A DNA stretch of 9,094 nucleotides from Saccharofermentans sp. (lineage in GTDB: Bacteria > Bacillota_A > Clostridia > Saccharofermentanales > Saccharofermentanaceae). Positions 1,753 through 9,094 of this stretch are shown piece by piece; position 1 is the stretch's first letter, and every line of letters starts with the position of its first letter. The notes under the pieces are model-generated. The model was given only the letters and a program-made list of their open reading frames with translations, did no database searches and had not been told where the DNA came from. The stretch covers positions 1 through 9,094 of the forward strand of contig JAILMZ010000030.1 in NCBI GenBank assembly GCA_024692105.1, written 5' to 3'. Both the position numbers and the translations under genes were made by a program.

Positions 1753-1780
1753 TTTCTATCAATATATCACTACACCTCAA
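1753..1780 (-). promoter_or_regulatory. Weak candidate internal promoter for the toxin-antitoxin pair
   Basis: On the minus strand, TTGAGG (1780 to 1775) and TAGAAA (1758 to 1753) are separated by 16 bases, overlapping the end of the VWA gene. Transcription would start about ten bases before the antitoxin's ribosome binding site. This would give the TA pair its own expression independent of the upstream operon. Both boxes are imperfect. Confidence 0.25.
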
Positions 1781-3017
1781 CCCTCGCGACCTTACCCCAC
1801 GGCGGGTTTACAGGCTCGCCGGAACCTTCGTTTACCAGCAGCCAGAGGACCGGTATTCCCATCGCCGCGCTCTCGTTGGGAAAGGTTGCATATCCGTCAG
1901 TCATTATGATTATGCTGACAGGCATCGGATCCATCTTCTTTCTGACATAGTTGAATATTATGTCGAACCTCGTTCCTCCGCCGCCGTATGGCCGTATCGT
2001 CTTGAAAGCATCTATGCTGTCGAACGGCTTGGGCTCGACGATCTCTGCGTCGAAAAATCCGAGCCATCCCCTGAGTCTTCCGCCAAACTGGTCTATCGCA
2101 CCCTTTATCTCGGAGTACGCCGCGGTTATCTGGTCATCAGACATACTTGCGGATGTATCGACCATGAACAATATATCCTTGACCGCCTCGTCCTTCTCGT
2201 TGTAATCCGGCAGGTAGAAATCACCGCCGTCGAACCTTCTGTCGGGCGGAGTAAAGGAATAGTCCGTTATCTCCTCCTGGACGAAAACATTGAGTATAGT
2301 ACGCCAGTCGGTCTGCGGCTTGCGCAGTTCCTTAAGGAGACGTTCGGCACACATAGGCAGCAGCCCCTGACCGGTAGCGCTTTGCCTTACGGATATGGCC
2401 TCAGCCGCGTTTATAAGCCGGCTTGTCCATTCATCCTTGAGGACATCCTCATCTCCAGCCGTGCCCCAGCGTGAGTGATCATCCCAGTCACCATCGGCGC
2501 TACCCTTGTCACCATCGCCTGAACTCTTAGTGTGGCTGCCCTGTCCTTTCTTCTTTGTATTCCGGACCGGCAGCATCTCATACACCTGTTCTGCCGTGTA
2601 ATAGCAGCCCTCATCACCCTTAGGAGTCCTGTGCATCGCCTCGCCGTATTTACTGAGAGTAATATACTTCAGGTTGCCGTTTCTGGACGCAAGTATGTTA
2701 GAGTTGACCACGATGTCGCAGGCTATGTTGAATCCTTCATGGTCAAGGTCTTTGCCGCGGAAGCAGTGCTGGAGCGCGCAGTGCATCACTTCGTGCATCA
2801 TCACGAAATCCAGCTCGTCGTCAGACAGGTTACTCAGGAACGACGGTCCGAAATATATCTTCCTGCCGTCCGTGCATGCTGTCTTGATCCGCGTATCTAT
2901 CGCGAATTCCATGTGCATCAACAGCAGCCCGTAGAAGCCGTTCGTGAACAGTATCCTCATGCGGGACATCAGCAGGCGCTTAACATATCCGCGCTTCTGT
3001 TCACTTGACTGATCCAT
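1770..3017 (-). CDS. VWA-like protein with N-terminal metallopeptidase-like domain (DUF2201 type)
   Basis: This 415-aa protein has two recognisable parts. Residues 1-150 carry HEVMHCALQH (75-84), an HExxH zinc-peptidase signature with an extra His, followed by HEGFNIACDIVVN (93-105) as in the DUF2201 N-terminal putative metallopeptidase domain. Residues 280-415 form a VWA-like domain with a complete metal-ion-dependent adhesion site: DTSAS (287-291), Thr349 in GGGGTR and Asp374 in TDGYA. Between them is a low-complexity Gly/Asp/Ser/Lys linker (152-190) and a helical segment. No signal peptide is present, so it is cytoplasmic. The start at 3017 overlaps the end of the upstream MoxR ATPase gene by 17 bases, the classic MoxR-VWA pairing in which the VWA protein links the ATPase ring to its client. 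Whether the peptidase site is active is unknown. The gene ends in tandem stops (TAG TGA). Confidence 0.88.
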   Translation of the reverse strand: MDQSSEQKRGYVKRLLMSRMRILFTNGFYGLLLMHMEFAIDTRIKTACTDGRKIYFGPSFLSNLSDDELDFVMMHEVMHCALQHCFRGKDLDHEGFNIACDIVVNSNILASRNGNLKYITLSKYGEAMHRTPKGDEGCYYTAEQVYEMLPVRNTKKKGQGSHTKSSGDGDKGSADGDWDDHSRWGTAGDEDVLKDEWTSRLINAAEAISVRQSATGQGLLPMCAERLLKELRKPQTDWRTILNVFVQEEITDYSFTPPDRRFDGGDFYLPDYNEKDEAVKDILFMVDTSASMSDDQITAAYSEIKGAIDQFGGRLRGWLGFFDAEIVEPKPFDSIDAFKTIRPYGGGGTRFDIIFNYVRKKMDPMPVSIIIMTDGYATFPNESAAMGIPVLWLLVNEGSGEPVNPPWGKVARVEV

Positions 3018-4119
3018 TCAGCAAATTCCCTTTTTTCTGCGACCAAACGACAAACTCGGGTATCTTCATAAGTGTCAATCTGTAATCGGGTTCCAGGTAC
3101 ATGTAGTCCTTCAAAAGCACAACACTGAAATCCGGCGGCATCTTCTCCGAATAGCTTATGGAGCGGCCGATCGCCTCAAGGTCGTCCTTATGCTCTCGGG
3201 CATAGGCAGTCATCGCAGAACACAGAGCATACAGAGCGTCCGTGCTCTTCGGGACAGCCGGAGACTTGCCTGCGAAGATATCCTCGATCTTAGGGAGTTT
3301 CATATACACGCGAAGCCAGGTCCTGAACTCGACCGTGACGGCAGTTCCGACGATGCCTGCAATAAGCGGATATACATTATCCATGTCGCCGTCTATGCTG
3401 TTCAGCACATTGCTCACCATCTCCCAGGAACGCGGCGTGGCAAACGCCAGGTCGTCGGAAGCGGCATTGAATCTCATGAGGTAGTCTCTCTTGAATGACA
3501 GGAAGCCTATAACCTTATCGTTGATGCCGTTACTTACGGCCCATTCCCTCCACGCATCGAAACTTCCTTCTGCTTCGATGTGCATCAGACGGTTGGCAAG
3601 CGCCTTCGGCATCTTATACGCAACAGACTTGTCAGTCACCCTGTTGCCTGCTGCGATTACTATGCAGTTCTCGGGCAGCCTGTGCTCGCCCACGGTCCTG
3701 TCCAGCGTGATCTGATATGCAGCAGCCTGCACGGACTGCGGCGCGGCAGATATCTCATCCAGGAACAGTATGTTCACCACGTCGGGCGAGTCGTCCATCT
3801 GGAATATCTGAGGTCTCAGCCACACGGCAAGGGTCTTATCCGCGTTGGCTGTCGGGATGCCTCTGAGGTCGATCGGGTTGAACAGCAGGAGGCGCACGTC
3901 GGTGACGTTAACCTTCTTGCCTGTCTCACGCTCTATCTTGGAAGCGATCTGCCTTACAGCCTGGGATTTACCGACGCCCGGCGGGCCCCACATCATAACT
4001 GAAGGCATCGTCCTTAGCGGCAGCCTGTTGTTGATTATCGAGCAGTAGGAATTACCCAGAACCTCGACTATCTTTCCGACAGACATTGACGGAATGTTAG
4101 ACATCTTAAGATCACTCAT
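3001..4119 (-). CDS. MoxR-type AAA+ ATPase
   Basis: This is a 372-aa AAA+ ATPase of the MoxR/RavA/NorQ kind. It has Walker A GPPGVGKS (45-52), Walker B LFLDE (118-122), the sensor-1 Asn in AAGNR (156-160), an arginine-finger-like Arg177 in ANRLMHIE, and the sensor-2 Arg230 in ATPRSWE. Insertions typical of the family lie between Walker A and B, including FNPIDLRGIP (80-89). Such ATPases form hexameric rings that remodel or activate protein clients, usually together with a VWA partner. That partner is encoded immediately downstream with a 17-base overlap. The ATG at 4119 overlaps the helicase gene by eight bases, suggesting that all three proteins are made together. The C-terminal third (about 275-372) is helical and unrecognised and may provide client binding. 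All catalytic residues are present. Confidence 0.92.
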   Translation of the reverse strand: MSDLKMSNIPSMSVGKIVEVLGNSYCSIINNRLPLRTMPSVMMWGPPGVGKSQAVRQIASKIERETGKKVNVTDVRLLLFNPIDLRGIPTANADKTLAVWLRPQIFQMDDSPDVVNILFLDEISAAPQSVQAAAYQITLDRTVGEHRLPENCIVIAAGNRVTDKSVAYKMPKALANRLMHIEAEGSFDAWREWAVSNGINDKVIGFLSFKRDYLMRFNAASDDLAFATPRSWEMVSNVLNSIDGDMDNVYPLIAGIVGTAVTVEFRTWLRVYMKLPKIEDIFAGKSPAVPKSTDALYALCSAMTAYAREHKDDLEAIGRSISYSEKMPPDFSVVLLKDYMYLEPDYRLTLMKIPEFVVWSQKKGNLLNGSVK

Positions 4120-7100
4120 CTTTCTTCACCCCCAGTTGCTCATCCAGTTCTTCAACCTTTTTTCTGTAGTACTCGATCTTGTCGGCAAAGTCCTCGTCCT
4201 TGGCAAGTTCCGCCTTCAGGTCAGACTGCCTTTTCCTGATCTTCGTCAGGCCGTCAGTAAACTCATCAAGCCTGCCTTCCAAAGTATCAAGCGCATTGTC
4301 TATCCTCTGCAGGTTGCCGACCTCGGTATCGCCAAGTTCGACATAGTACTTGCCGCTCCTTGCGAGATACACATAAGGTTTCTCCGAAGACATGTTGGTC
4401 GGAAGGATTATGTCAAACCCTCGGTATGTCATCAGGGTTGTCTCCGATGTCTGCAGCACGTTACCTCGCACCGCAGATGCGATGGTCTCCCTCAAGCCCT
4501 TCCTGCGCTCTGCTTCTTCCTTCTTCTGTTTATTCCCTTCCGGTGCGGGATTGATCTCGCGCCAGTGCTTATAGAACTCAATGTCATCCGCGCACATCGT
4601 GATGAGGTCCTGCTGGCGCGCTATCTTCGCCGGGATTTCAAGCAGATCCTTCTGCATGGCGATCCTGGACTCTGTCAGCTTATGCTGAAGCACCATGTAA
4701 CGCGTCAGTTCGTTGGCAGCCTCCACACGCTCCTTGACGAGCGGATTGCCGACTGCAAGCGCCTTAACCTCAGCGTAGTTAAGGACAGTATCGTCGATGT
4801 CCGCGCCGCTCCTTGCGGTAAGCGAACCCGACAGCAGGCTCGATATGAACCTCTGCTTTGTCTCGAGCAGCTGCCACGAATAAGCATCAAAACTGCCCTC
4901 GGTGATATACCTGTAGATATACACCTTCGAATTCGTGTTGCCCTGGCGAAGGATCCTTCCCTCGCGCTGCGTCATGTCAGCAGGTCTCCACGGCACATCG
5001 AGGTGGTGGAGTGCGATGAGCTTGTCCTGAATGTTCACGCCCAGACCGAGCTTGAACGTCGATCCGATGAGAACGCGGACCTCGCCCTTGCGGACCTTCC
5101 TGAACAAAGCATTGCGCCTTACCTCGGTATCGGCATCGTGTATGAACGCGATCTGCTCTTCGGGTATGTTGTAACCCATCAGCCGCGCCTTGAGTTCCGT
5201 ATAGAGGTTGAAGTCCTTCTTCGGCGTCGACGAATCGCAGAACACCAGCTGCGTGCTCTTATCAGCAAAAGTCTTAACATAGATGTCCGCGATGTTCTCC
5301 GCACATCTTGCGACCTTCGACTGATATGTCGGAAGCGACGTTGGATCCACGAGCCTCATGTCGAGTGCGGCCTTCCTGCCGTCCGTCGTTATCTTGAGCA
5401 TGTTGTCATCCCTGCGGCTCACCTGCCCTGTGCGAACCTGCTCGGCCCTGTCGGATATCAGCTGCAGATAAGCGCTGAAGTCCGGTGTCTTGCCTATCAG
5501 CGCATCCTTATAGCCGTCGTGCGAAGGTATCCCCGCGGAATCGTCCACCGAATGGAAATCCGCGATGGAAGACAGCAGAGCAGTAAGTTCCGGCAGGTTG
5601 TGGAACTTGGCAAACCTCGTTGCCAGACGGTACGAACTCGTATCGACGTCTATCTCGAACTCGGTCACGCGCTCTGCGAACATGCCTATCCAGCTGTCGA
5701 AGCTCTGCAGGTCCAAGAGCGTCAGTTCTCCGCTCTGCAGATACATCTGCATTACGAAAGCATCCGTTATCGAATTGGTTATCGGCGTGCCAGTCGCAAA
5801 GACCACACCGCCGCCGTTGTTGCCGCGCTGTATGAGGTGAACCTTATCGAGCATGTCGAGGCATTTCTTCGAGCCTGCACCCGAGATTCCGAGGACATTG
5901 TTTGCCTTGGTATCTACAGGCAGGGACTTGAAGTTGTGCGCCTCATCGACAAACAGCCTCGTGATGCCGAGTTCGTCGAAGTAGACGGTGTCATACATGT
6001 CTTCCAAGGCAGCATTCAATTCGGCGATCTTCTCCTTGAGTTTCTCGCTCTTCTTTTTGAGCTTGCTCGTCGCCTTGCCTTTGGTATGTATGGTATTCTC
6101 GACCGCCTCCTGCTGCGCCTTCAGGTCATCCAGATAGCACTGCTTTGACAGCGGTATCATCTCGAAACAGCTGTACGCAATGATTATCCCGTCAAAGTCC
6201 TCATCCCTCACGCGTTCCAGGATGGCCTCGCGCTGGGAAGGCTTGAACATCTTCGGCTCAATGCAGAGGACCTTCGCATCAGGATACATCTGCGCGAAAA
6301 TGCTCTTCCACTGCCCCACGATGTTGTTCGGCACGACATACATGTTCTTCTTCGACAGTCCCATGCGCCTGAGTTCCTGGCCTGCGGCGATCATGACATA
6401 AGTCTTGCCCGCGCCCACATCGTGCGCCAGAAGCGTATTGGGCGAGAATAAGATCCTCGCCACCGCATCCTTCTGATAAGGGAACAATGTAACACCCGGA
6501 GACATCGTCGGAAATGTCAGGAACGATCCGTCGAACATGCGCCTTCTTACGCAGGAGAACTTCTCCTCGAAGATGGTCTCGAGCCTCTCTTTACGCTTGG
6601 GTTCGGTCCATACCCAGTCCTGGAACTCTTTGATGAGATCCTTCTGCTTCTCCAGCGCCGCCAGAGTCTCCTTCCTGTTGATGACTCTCTTGATGCCCGA
6701 CTTGTTCGTTAGGCACTTGACCTCGTCCGTCACCTTGACGGTCTTCATGTTCAGAGTGTTCTCAAGGATTTTGAGAGCCTCCATGCGGTTGGTACCGAAC
6801 ACCTGCGACACGCCTATGCTGTGGTAATACCTGTCAGTCAAGGGTATCTCCCATGTACCCGTAATCTCATCATGTCTGGTATCCAGATACCAGTGTTTAA
6901 TTTCTTCGCTGCGGAACCTGTAATGCGTCACCTCGCCGAACAGGTGCACTATAAAGTCATCTATGACATCCGTAGGCACCCAGGGCGAACCCAGAGTGAC
7001 ATAGATGTCCTTGGTCGCCACAGTCGGCGGGAGCACCTTCTCTATAGCCTTCAGGTTGTCTGCGAAGTATCCCTTGTACTCGTCATTGGCCTTGGAAGCG

Positions 7101-7639
7101 GTCTTCCACTTGCGCACGAGATTGCCAGACAGATACTCTTCTGCAGTCTCCCAGCCTTTATAGAAACACTCACCCCAGGTCTCCGGGTTCTGATAGATCG
7201 AACCCTTCAGCGTGCCAATGACCGTCTTACAGTCGGCACCCGTAACAGATGAGATGTATTCGATGTCCACGCATCCAAGCGTCGTAAGGCTCATCACAAG
7301 AGCATCAGGGATACTCTCTGTATGGACGCCCTGAGTCCTGGCATCGTTACCAAAGACATTCTCCCAGTCCATGGGAAGATCCATGGCGGTTACTTCCTCG
7401 ATGTGCCTGGCCTTACGCTCGGCTTCCTCTTTTGCCTTCCTCTCGCGCTCTTCGCGTTCGCGCTTCTTCTGTTCCCTGCGCTCACGTTCCCGGGAAATGT
7501 TCTTGGCAGAACTGAGCGCGTTGATAAGGCCCTGGATCTCATCAGGGGAAAACTTCTTGCCTATATCCTTGTCCGCACCTTCGGACAGAAGATCGAGTAT
7601 AGACAGTTGTCCTTTATGATTTTTACCACCCTTATTCAA
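4112..7639 (-). CDS. Large SNF2/DEAH-type helicase of mobile-element type
   Basis: This 1175-aa superfamily 2 ATPase starts at TTG 7639. Its order is a short N-terminus, a highly charged Arg/Glu/Lys helix (49-83), and a conserved region (about 105-235, including ETAEEYLSGN at 164-173). The helicase core follows: Q-like FPYQKDAV (386-393), Walker A GAGKT (409-413), DEAH (565-568), ATGTPITN (615-622), GLGVNIQD (865-872) and motif VI QREGRILRQG (891-900). Coiled-coil segments lie near 505-545, 985-1010 and 1130-1170. The 105-235 region and core match the helicase half of the giant methylase-helicase (SNF2-related) proteins of Firmicutes conjugative elements and phages. Here no N6-adenine methylase signature (DPPY/NPPF) is visible and the protein is about half their length. 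Likely roles are DNA translocation in protection of incoming DNA, antirestriction or transfer. It heads a set of overlapping genes with the MoxR ATPase and VWA protein. Confidence 0.9.
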   Translation of the reverse strand: MNKGGKNHKGQLSILDLLSEGADKDIGKKFSPDEIQGLINALSSAKNISRERERREQKKREREERERKAKEEAERKARHIEEVTAMDLPMDWENVFGNDARTQGVHTESIPDALVMSLTTLGCVDIEYISSVTGADCKTVIGTLKGSIYQNPETWGECFYKGWETAEEYLSGNLVRKWKTASKANDEYKGYFADNLKAIEKVLPPTVATKDIYVTLGSPWVPTDVIDDFIVHLFGEVTHYRFRSEEIKHWYLDTRHDEITGTWEIPLTDRYYHSIGVSQVFGTNRMEALKILENTLNMKTVKVTDEVKCLTNKSGIKRVINRKETLAALEKQKDLIKEFQDWVWTEPKRKERLETIFEEKFSCVRRRMFDGSFLTFPTMSPGVTLFPYQKDAVARILFSPNTLLAHDVGAGKTYVMIAAGQELRRMGLSKKNMYVVPNNIVGQWKSIFAQMYPDAKVLCIEPKMFKPSQREAILERVRDEDFDGIIIAYSCFEMIPLSKQCYLDDLKAQQEAVENTIHTKGKATSKLKKKSEKLKEKIAELNAALEDMYDTVYFDELGITRLFVDEAHNFKSLPVDTKANNVLGISGAGSKKCLDMLDKVHLIQRGNNGGGVVFATGTPITNSITDAFVMQMYLQSGELTLLDLQSFDSWIGMFAERVTEFEIDVDTSSYRLATRFAKFHNLPELTALLSSIADFHSVDDSAGIPSHDGYKDALIGKTPDFSAYLQLISDRAEQVRTGQVSRRDDNMLKITTDGRKAALDMRLVDPTSLPTYQSKVARCAENIADIYVKTFADKSTQLVFCDSSTPKKDFNLYTELKARLMGYNIPEEQIAFIHDADTEVRRNALFRKVRKGEVRVLIGSTFKLGLGVNIQDKLIALHHLDVPWRPADMTQREGRILRQGNTNSKVYIYRYITEGSFDAYSWQLLETKQRFISSLLSGSLTARSGADIDDTVLNYAEVKALAVGNPLVKERVEAANELTRYMVLQHKLTESRIAMQKDLLEIPAKIARQQDLITMCADDIEFYKHWREINPAPEGNKQKKEEAERRKGLRETIASAVRGNVLQTSETTLMTYRGFDIILPTNMSSEKPYVYLARSGKYYVELGDTEVGNLQRIDNALDTLEGRLDEFTDGLTKIRKRQSDLKAELAKDEDFADKIEYYRKKVEELDEQLGVKKDE

Positions 7640-7699: not shown

Positions 7700-9094
7700 C
7701 TATTCCCCTATTGACGCGGAAAGGCGAAGAATCTCCTCTACTTCCACTTCCGTCCTCTCATCACCGGGACATTCATGCCATGCATTCCAGAATGCAGCAC
7801 CTCTATCCTCGTCTCCGCCGATCCACTTACTAACCTTAACCAGTAGCTCGTCTTCTTCGGCAAGTTCGTCCTCTCCGACACTTCTCAGCCTGTACAGCGG
7901 CGACAGCCTCGGTTCATATTCATACACTCCGACGTCAGCAGCATTCTTGTAGAACCTCTTGTGCTTGAGCGCAGTTATTTTCCAATTATCAGTAAACGGA
8001 ACCTTGAACAGGATCGTCGGAAAACAGCAGTCATACTGTTCTACGCCCTCCACAACAAGCGCACGGAAAGGCGGCCCAAACGGACTGCAGTCTATATTCA
8101 CGATATCCCCGGCCTTGAAAGGAGTAGGAACGGACAGGTCAAATACCCCTCTGTAGAACCTCTCATCAGCCGGCACATAGAACTCCAGGCCATTTACCTC
8201 CCTGATCGTTTCCATCTGCTCGAACCAGCATATCTCACCGTTATAGACATAGTAGTTGAATCCAAGCTCATACTTGTCCCAGCCATTCAGATCCCAGGCC
8301 TCGACCCTATACCAACTGGGAGACGCTTTGTCCTCAACTGTCACTTCGCGTTCGAATTCCGCCACTTTCTTGAAGTATCTCTTCACCTGCTTAAGAGTTC
8401 CGAACAGTCCGCACGGATATGACTTCACTATCAGAACATCAGGGTCGTACCACTCTTCGAACAGATAGTAGATACAGTGCTTAAGCCCCATCTCTGCCAG
8501 ACTTAATTCCCTGACTGCATCGTGCAGACTGTCACCAAACATGCCTGAGACTTCCGAGACCGCTTTCTTCACACGCTCATACTCACTGCCTTCCCTGATA
8601 GCTGCAGCACCCTTAACGAGAGTCTCATAATTGACGAGAGTCTCATAATTAACATTGGTCTTCTTTATCAGCAGATCCAGCATCTCATGCTTTTTCTTAA
8701 GCGGTACAGGAGCCCGGCAGACGATATCCGTCAAAACGCTCTCGGACGGGATCCCGCTCTCAAGCATATGATCAAGCATCTCCTTACCGAACCCGCATGC
8801 CTTAAGGATCTTACGCACCAACTGAGGTGTCCACCCTTCGCGGTCAGGCACCAGAGGCTCCAAATCATCAACAGACGATATCTCGATGCACGAATCAGAC
8901 GGCAGATAATACAGCCTGCACTTCTTCTGAAGCGCCAAAAGCAGCAGGATATTTACCAGCACCTCATGACTCTCACCGTCCCAGACGGCAACCATGCGGT
9001 CACAGTTTACCGGGATCTTCTCACAGCCGTGCTTAGTCTTACACACCCCGGCATTCTCATACTGCCTGCTCTTGCACCTTCCGTACACCCTGTG
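7700..9094 (-). CDS. Hypothetical protein with SLOG/Rossmann-like N-terminal fragment (5' end missing)
   Basis: The frame is open to the right edge; 464 codons are visible, ending in TAG at 7702-7700. A GTG at 9088 is not a credible start because it lies mid-domain with no room for a ribosome binding site. Numbering from that GTG, the segment CDRMVAVWDGES (29-40) followed by LVNILLLLALQKKCRLYYLP (44-63) resembles the last strands of SLOG/DprA-like Rossmann domains, which bind nucleotides or nucleotide-derived ligands. A helical region follows (80-210). A C-terminal domain contains PFKAGDIVNIDCSPFGPP (323-340), with many Trp, Tyr and Cys, ending in a short helical tail (SPLYRLRS, then WIGGDEDRGAAFWNAWHEC). 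This domain recalls uncharacterised clostridial proteins, but I cannot name it. The gene lies 60 bases upstream of the helicase and may share its operon. It holds an 18-bp internal duplication at 8616-8651. Confidence 0.78.
   Translation of the reverse strand, partial: HRVYGRCKSRQYENAGVCKTKHGCEKIPVNCDRMVAVWDGESHEVLVNILLLLALQKKCRLYYLPSDSCIEISSVDDLEPLVPDREGWTPQLVRKILKACGFGKEMLDHMLESGIPSESVLTDIVCRAPVPLKKKHEMLDLLIKKTNVNYETLVNYETLVKGAAAIREGSEYERVKKAVSEVSGMFGDSLHDAVRELSLAEMGLKHCIYYLFEEWYDPDVLIVKSYPCGLFGTLKQVKRYFKKVAEFEREVTVEDKASPSWYRVEAWDLNGWDKYELGFNYYVYNGEICWFEQMETIREVNGLEFYVPADERFYRGVFDLSVPTPFKAGDIVNIDCSPFGPPFRALVVEGVEQYDCCFPTILFKVPFTDNWKITALKHKRFYKNAADVGVYEYEPRLSPLYRLRSVGEDELAEEDELLVKVSKWIGGDEDRGAAFWNAWHECPGDERTEVEVEEILRLSASIGE
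8616..8651 (-). repeat. 18-bp tandem duplication inside the right-edge gene
   Basis: ACGAGAGTCTCATAATTG (8616-8633) is repeated immediately at 8634-8651, with only the last base changed. In frame it duplicates the hexapeptide NYETLV (NYETLV NYETLV). Being 18 bp long it keeps the frame. It looks like a recent slippage or duplication event in a linker between helical segments and is probably harmless to the fold. Confidence 0.85.

Follow-up and report, generated by a model that had tools for sequence, protein, structure and literature searches.

An overlapping operon of SNF2-type translocase, MoxR ATPase and metallopeptidase-VWA genes in Clostridia, with a possible role in conflict

Three overlapping genes on the minus strand

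The window, that is, the whole stretch of 9,094 nucleotides analyzed here (Saccharofermentans sp., assembly GCA_024692105.1, contig JAILMZ010000030.1), carries on its minus strand a three-gene unit, hereafter the triad, encoding an SNF2-type SF2 translocase, a MoxR-type AAA+ ATPase, and a protein that combines a DUF2201_N metallopeptidase domain with a DUF2201 von Willebrand factor A (VWA) domain. The translocase gene (4112..7639) begins with TTG and specifies 1175 amino acids (aa), the MoxR gene (3001..4119) begins with ATG and specifies 372 aa, and the VWA gene (1770..3017), also with an ATG start, specifies 415 aa. The open reading frames (ORFs) bear out the overlaps reported in an earlier note on this DNA, with 8 bases shared by the helicase and MoxR genes (4112..4119) and 17 by the MoxR and VWA genes (3001..3017). 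Ribosome-binding-like sequences were recognized by eye, namely an AGGTG-type one before the helicase TTG, GGGGGTGA before the MoxR ATG and AAGGGA before the VWA ATG, and a ribosome-binding sequence at each of the three starts is plausible.

In Pfam, the helicase matches SNF2-rel_dom, Helicase_C, and ResIII, while the ATPase matches AAA_3 and AAA, as well as phrog_1297 (E 2.5e-92). The third protein matches DUF2201_N, described as 'putative metallopeptidase' (E 3e-35), and DUF2201, described as 'VWA-like' (E 2e-11). These assignments uphold the kind of MoxR and VWA pair previously recognized at the locus. RavA-ViaA, NorQ-NorD, and CbbQ-CbbO also consist of a MoxR ATPase and a VWA partner; the triad differs from them in that its VWA protein carries an HExxH domain and a DNA translocase is encoded in the same operon.

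Conservation and distribution of the unit

When genome contigs from 84,980 species were scanned with a MoxR alignment, 216 relatives were confirmed, the best 80 of which provide the locus counts given here; the distant viral loci L002-L005 lie outside these 80. Gene order, for which the earlier note had suggested a survey of neighborhoods, is conserved: a VWA gene lies directly downstream of MoxR, on the same strand, in 80/80 loci, and a helicase gene directly upstream, also on the same strand, in 78/80. The two loci without a helicase match (L035 and L037) are uninformative in this respect, because their contigs start 152 and 77 bases before MoxR. Gaps between the matches of the three genes do not exceed 155 bases, and in some loci (e.g., L028 and L066) the helicase is cut by a contig end or apparently broken. 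Thus, the three genes form a conserved overlapping operon and are not chance neighbors. A split helicase match was also recorded at L036 (genome G005, C6 70288-70791 and 83802-86630), its two parts lying ~13 kb apart, as if by insertion.

Overlap lengths were compared in 57 loci with all three genes at full length, the window included and L016 excluded (its row held another ORF), the first start codon of each open frame being taken as the start. The helicase and MoxR genes overlap by 4 nucleotides in 36 of the 57 and by 8 in nine, while the MoxR and VWA genes overlap by 14 in 36 and by 17 in 15.

Catalytic motifs, counted over full-length ORFs only and located here on the minus strand, are intact. 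The helicase Walker A pattern (DVGAGKT, 6401..6421) is present in 67 of 68 sequences, the remaining one (L084) keeping GKT, and both the DEAH box (5936..5947) and motif VI (Q..GR..R, 4946..4969) are present in all 68. For MoxR, the generic Walker A pattern (GPPGVGKS, 3964..3987) is found in 73 of 74, L084 reading SPPGVGKS, once an unrelated second ORF of L016 is dropped from the initial 75. The HExxH zinc-peptidase motif of the third protein (HEVMH, 2781..2795) is found in 73 of 75 members, with HQLLH in L069 and HLLLH in L078, both of them triads, and the strict DxSxS pattern of the metal-ion-dependent adhesion site (MIDAS) of its VWA domain (DTSAS, 2145..2159) in 69 of 75. Three of the motif patterns are missed at L084, owing just to one variant residue in each case or to where the motif is placed.

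The pairwise distance matrices of the triad proteins correlate with Pearson coefficients of 0.72-0.78, values as high being reached in 0 of 999 permutations; such mirror-tree correlations are what joint inheritance predicts, and they show this and not interaction. Neighbors of the unit vary between loci, the most frequent gene cluster after those of the triad itself being present in 24 of the 86 sequences used for clustering.

Among 291 genomes sampled from the class around G001, MoxR of the triad family is found in eight (G001 included; E <=1.6e-106, the next match being at 1e-41), and the triad in five of these (G001, G006, G265, G138, and the deep G263). Helicases were scored from the two best candidates per genome, so that the helicase counts are lower bounds. 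Of the other three, G246 has the MoxR gene on a contig that starts before the expected helicase position, and G136 and G223 have the MoxR-VWA pair and no helicase. A helicase of the triad type was also seen in G267, where the contig ends within the gene. A protein search returned MoxR relatives at E <=0.001 for 7276 of 8000 scored candidates, not all of them necessarily of the triad family. The triad is therefore accessory in the class Clostridia, and records of named strains that carry it include Ruminococcus bromii 5AMG and Lachnospiraceae AB2028 and AC2029.

In both G136 and G223 the peptidase motif reads HQxxH, the catalytic Glu being lost; the helicase-free MoxR-VWA pairs with HQxxH in place of HExxH lie at L087:1395-2738 and L088:10071-11435. 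Coupling of helicase loss to loss of the catalytic Glu was considered and rejected: G136 and G223 form one clade of the MoxR tree, and therefore represent at most one event, and the triads L069 and L078 also lack the Glu. This tree has long branches and unsettled bootstrap, its deep order being unsure.

As for genomic location, close copies are absent from plasmid and phage records, where every helicase and MoxR match is less than 60% identical and the best 40 plasmid MoxR rows are at most 36% identical, and in IMG/VR a single short contig (L001) carries the triad. A tyrosine integrase occurs within 20 kb of the unit in one of 12 genomes (G008, ~15 kb from the VWA end), several contigs being short and serine recombinases not having been searched for. 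Location on a mobile element, the setting envisaged for the helicase in the earlier note, is accordingly not supported in the sampled genomes, whose contigs are often short. Where flanking sequence suffices for comparison (56 loci among L006-L085), the unit is higher in G+C than its surroundings in 50 cases, the mean difference being 4.2 points.

Relatives of the three proteins

The window helicase matches the DarB-type core (phrog_10089, E 1.9e-245) with residues 105-1174 aligned, and no methyltransferase domain was detected in it by Pfam. Long relatives do have one: an Eco57I methylase match was found in four of four, above cut-off in two, and a fifth matches phrog_3820, a methyltransferase family. 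DarB-like and methylase-SNF2 helicases of mobile elements thus share the helicase core of the triad, but DarB-like proteins reach ~2000-4000 aa with a methylase, whereas the triad helicase has ~1175 aa, no methylase domain, and a link to MoxR-VWA. Judged from sequence, the triad clade is without the methyltransferase of its DarB-like relatives. The former description as a giant mobile-element helicase therefore needs qualifying: the resemblance to such proteins holds, but the clade is short and has no close plasmid or phage copy.

A sister clade of similar length (G124 and G284) bears an N-terminal fused sce7726 domain, which we take to be PD-(D/E)XK nuclease-like, and has no MoxR-VWA nearby; the helicase tree also includes G144 and G170, with frames of just 1116 and 1251 aa. 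Sister-clade helicases with the same N-terminal domain and no MoxR-VWA were observed at L099:5526-9101 and L100:5112-8699, the latter close to genes for a WYL protein and for a SpoVK/EccA/CbbX-like AAA protein, as is often the case at triad loci. One motor core is thus linked to three partners, namely a methyltransferase, a putative nuclease, and the MoxR-VWA peptidase, and such partner exchange would be expected if the helicase supplies engagement of DNA and the partner supplies the effect. Among the best 80 viral helicase relatives, 79 have open frames of at least 1500 aa, and no MoxR or VWA match was found in the flanks (up to 8 kb per side) of any of these 79. Whether helicase homologues usually occur without the pair, which had been named beforehand as counting against a functional association, therefore receives two answers: within the triad clade all those that could be judged in the class sample are paired (G001, G006, G265, G138, and G263), while in the wider family the sce7726 type and the long viral helicases are not. 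Resemblance to DISARM DrmD (47.9 bits against a curated cut-off of 610), Zorya ZorD, and BREX helicases is partial and far under curated cut-offs, with no other genes of those systems seen in the window.

For MoxR, a sequence-profile search identified no relative of solved structure at E 0.01, and the match of the window protein to bpMoxR (14.3 bits) does not reach the cut-off of 27. Relatives of the MoxR-VWA pair occur in phages, namely gp24/gp25 of N4 and gp566 and gp576 of Bacillus phage G, and the pair of the triad shares its two-protein architecture, with homologous sequence (matches to phrog_1297 and phrog_1314), with the N4 pair and with that of jumbo phages. N4 gp25 (L105:6230-7372) is annotated as 'HNH endonuclease', yet it matches DUF2201_N with 293 bits and DUF2201 with 158 bits, and is therefore a metallopeptidase-VWA protein. 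Unlike the triad, the phage loci L002-L005, L104, and L105 have no coupled helicase, and the pair is arranged in another order or at another spacing in the large viral contigs and phage G. Phages N4 and G keep HExxH, as do one large viral contig, a clostridial pair that is only distantly related, and a pair on a Thermus plasmid; coordinates for L003 and L004 were approximate in this comparison and ran over stops, and L004, which showed no motif, was left out. On a Thermus oshimai plasmid (L106:5923-12780), a distant MoxR and DUF2201 VWA pair precedes a gene of unknown kind and then a UvrD-type helicase gene, a RecQ helicase gene lying ~5 kb upstream; this is another DNA-motor neighborhood.

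MoxR-vWA ternary conflict systems (VMAP, iSTAND, beta-propeller, and FtsH types), as outlined in PMC7159879, PMC12839542, and PMC10907252, have in common with the triad a MoxR, a vWA protein possibly with a peptidase, and a third partner. Here the MoxR is of the AAA_3 and phrog_1297 families and the vWA effector joins DUF2201_N to DUF2201, with HExxH; the third partner is an SNF2 DNA translocase, unlike in those systems. None of the VMAP, beta-propeller, FtsH, or iSTAND types was found by Pfam in the seven window proteins, no search with a dedicated iSTAND model having been made. The host also differs, being a member of the Clostridia, whereas the published systems are reported to belong preponderantly to multicellular prokaryotes. 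No account of an SNF2-MoxR-VWA three-gene unit was found in the literature (open-licence papers), in agreement with the earlier note, which knew of no characterized system of exactly this composition; the triad may represent a MoxR-vWA system of previously undescribed composition, with a DNA translocase as the third partner.

Proposed function and genomic surroundings

We put at about even the chances that the three proteins make up an accessory conflict system on clostridial chromosomes, the translocase locating target DNA and the peptidase, driven by MoxR, acting against proteins. What is seen is the operon, with its intact catalytic motifs, and a helicase core fused elsewhere to a methyltransferase or to sce7726; from this we infer a complex of the three proteins that would have protease activity and would be triggered by invading DNA. 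In such a system, (i) the SNF2-type translocase would engage DNA and find the target, (ii) the VWA protein would dock via its MIDAS site onto the MoxR ring, (iii) the ring would unfold a protein substrate or switch the complex, and (iv) the HExxH domain would cleave proteins, whether those attached to the invading DNA or, if the system acts abortively, those of the host. The translocase would thereby occupy the place of the third partner of MoxR-vWA ternary systems (cf. PMC7159879 and PMC10907252).

The flanks bear on this proposal in both directions. On either side of each locus, L001 among them, the closest gene that is complete there and encodes 130-1300 aa was taken (n = 116), and these were compared with 116 control genes, chosen among 135 in 18 regions that lie more than 50 kb away on the same contigs in eight of the genomes. 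By Pfam, seven of the 116 nearest flank genes encode a WYL domain versus ~0.06 expected (213 matches in 196 class genomes), the expectation assuming a 2.4 Mb genome and its gene density, and similar loci (e.g., L022/L027, L044/L049/L053, and L009/L010) not being independent. A WYL profile gave 31 matches in 28 loci over 773,842 flank bases and none in 216,000 control bases; since it was built from the flank genes themselves, the WYL claim rests on the Pfam count. BrxR-family WYL regulators are reported to be co-localized with known defence systems in 48% of cases (PMC9122601). Single flank genes also match PADLOC models of a retron reverse transcriptase, AbiEii, and CARF-HEPN.

Several observations weigh against a conflict role. 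PADLOC families number 88 in the flanks and 84 in the control, hence no general excess, and single control genes likewise match defence models (RTasHel, GajB, ShosA, and PDC-M37B). Among the 25 of 118 flank Pfam families that were listed, several are ordinary (ABC transporters 6, GNAT 3, and tRNA synthetase 2), and a methyltransferase, which could serve as a self marker, is absent. The catalytic Glu is missing in the two of the 75 cassette members noted above, and no structure matches the peptidase half with confidence, its profile match to MJ1213, which falls at the HExxH motif, being at E 0.004 and those to Pfam M48 and SprT-like families below cut-off; in a structure search with the whole VWA model the listed matches are VWA/I-domains, covering about residues 277-415, and other peptidase families may be unlisted. 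Finally, co-inheritance could have a housekeeping reason. A defence island by PADLOC counts was accordingly rejected, WYL alone standing out, and with flanks close to control by PADLOC and rich in WYL, the defence-island evidence for the triad is moderate.

A bolder form of the conflict proposal, to which we assign a low probability, is a DNA-tracking proteolytic machine, with the translocase as a moving platform that would carry the MoxR unfoldase and the HExxH peptidase to relaxases, terminal proteins, or replication proteins of invading DNA. Just as tentatively, such a machine might be, as far as composition goes, what bacteria have in place of helicase/p97/SPRTN crosslink clearance, its motor core having been refitted in evolution with a protease where relatives have a methyltransferase or a nuclease-like domain. 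The same resemblance, with translocase, unfoldase, and peptidase as in FANCJ/p97/SPRTN, can be turned toward the cell's own DNA: in nucleoprotein-clearing repair the translocase would meet a covalently or tightly bound protein, MoxR would unfold it, and the metallopeptidase would clip it. A translocase, an unfoldase, and an HExxH peptidase are the parts to be expected of a repair machine, and Foldseek matches of the helicase model include Mot1 and RapA. The SprT-like Pfam matches of the VWA protein point the same way, but they are weak (E 0.017 and 15.4 bits against a cut-off of 25.6 in the window; E 0.009 in the deep G263 member) and lie under the curated cut-off. A MoxR family found in just eight of 291 class genomes, with WYL-rich flanks, would moreover be unusual for core repair, which we consider rather unlikely. 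Still more doubtful is a housekeeping chaperone or remodeller, e.g., one for RapA-like removal of stalled RNA polymerase with MoxR-VWA as maturation factor; the structural match of the SNF2 model to RapA, and the action of RavA-ViaA-type pairs in assembly (PMC7159879), would suit it, but presence is patchy and neighbors shift.

A similarly poor prospect is a helicase for mobile-element transfer or antirestriction served by a chaperone pair, close to what the earlier note had suggested. Its alignment with DarB-like and plasmid or phage helicases, PcfJ-like genes in four of the 116 nearest flank genes, and the IMG/VR contig with the triad are consistent with such a role, but the helicase has no methyltransferase domain by Pfam, its plasmid and phage matches and those of MoxR are as distant as stated above, tyrosine integrases are rare near the unit (one of 12 genomes), and none of the 79 long viral helicases has the pair nearby. 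A virion assembly chaperone is highly improbable: this role has been proposed for the MoxR and peptidase-vWA pair of jumbo phages (PMC7824862), and homologous pairs do occur in phages N4 and G, but the 80 loci lie on bacterial genome contigs, no phage structural family is among the 25 of 118 flank families listed, and the phage pairs examined are without the triad helicase.

If the proposed conflict system is real, a DNA translocase would join the partners served by MoxR-vWA machines, and proteolysis would be tied directly to DNA scanning in bacterial conflict. It would also offer a simple three-gene unit in gut Clostridia, open to testing, and a way to learn what the homologous pair does in jumbo phages and in phages N4 and G.

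Some neighbors recur around the 80 loci, with none matched in the control: SpoVK-like AAA genes (21 loci), leucine-rich repeat (LRR) genes (12), PP2A-like metallophosphatases (8), DUF2779 (6), and RtcB-like genes (5), as detected with profiles derived from the flank genes (L006-L085). The LRR, RtcB, and phosphatase names are in part our presumption.

Within the window, no RNA family or tRNA was found, and promoter-like sites number two, against 6.8 in shuffles. Upstream of the helicase and on the same strand, a gene without family match (7700-9094, minus strand, at least 464 aa) is open at the window edge; relatives occur in six loci and, the window apart, border the helicase at L007 and L008 only, so that it was rejected as a fourth member and lies outside the unit. 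Downstream of the triad, also on the minus strand, lies a Fic/Doc toxin-like gene (1226-1615; DOC_P1, 59.4 bits, cut-off 38.65), and the 154 bases that separate it from the VWA gene hold, on its strand, no frame of at least 60 aa that might encode an antitoxin; at L008 a Fic/Doc gene likewise lies downstream of the triad, after sce7726. The low-GC end of the window holds, on the strand opposite to the triad (plus), a gene for a CdiA_C-domain protein of 180 aa (567-1109; Pfam, 53.9 bits).

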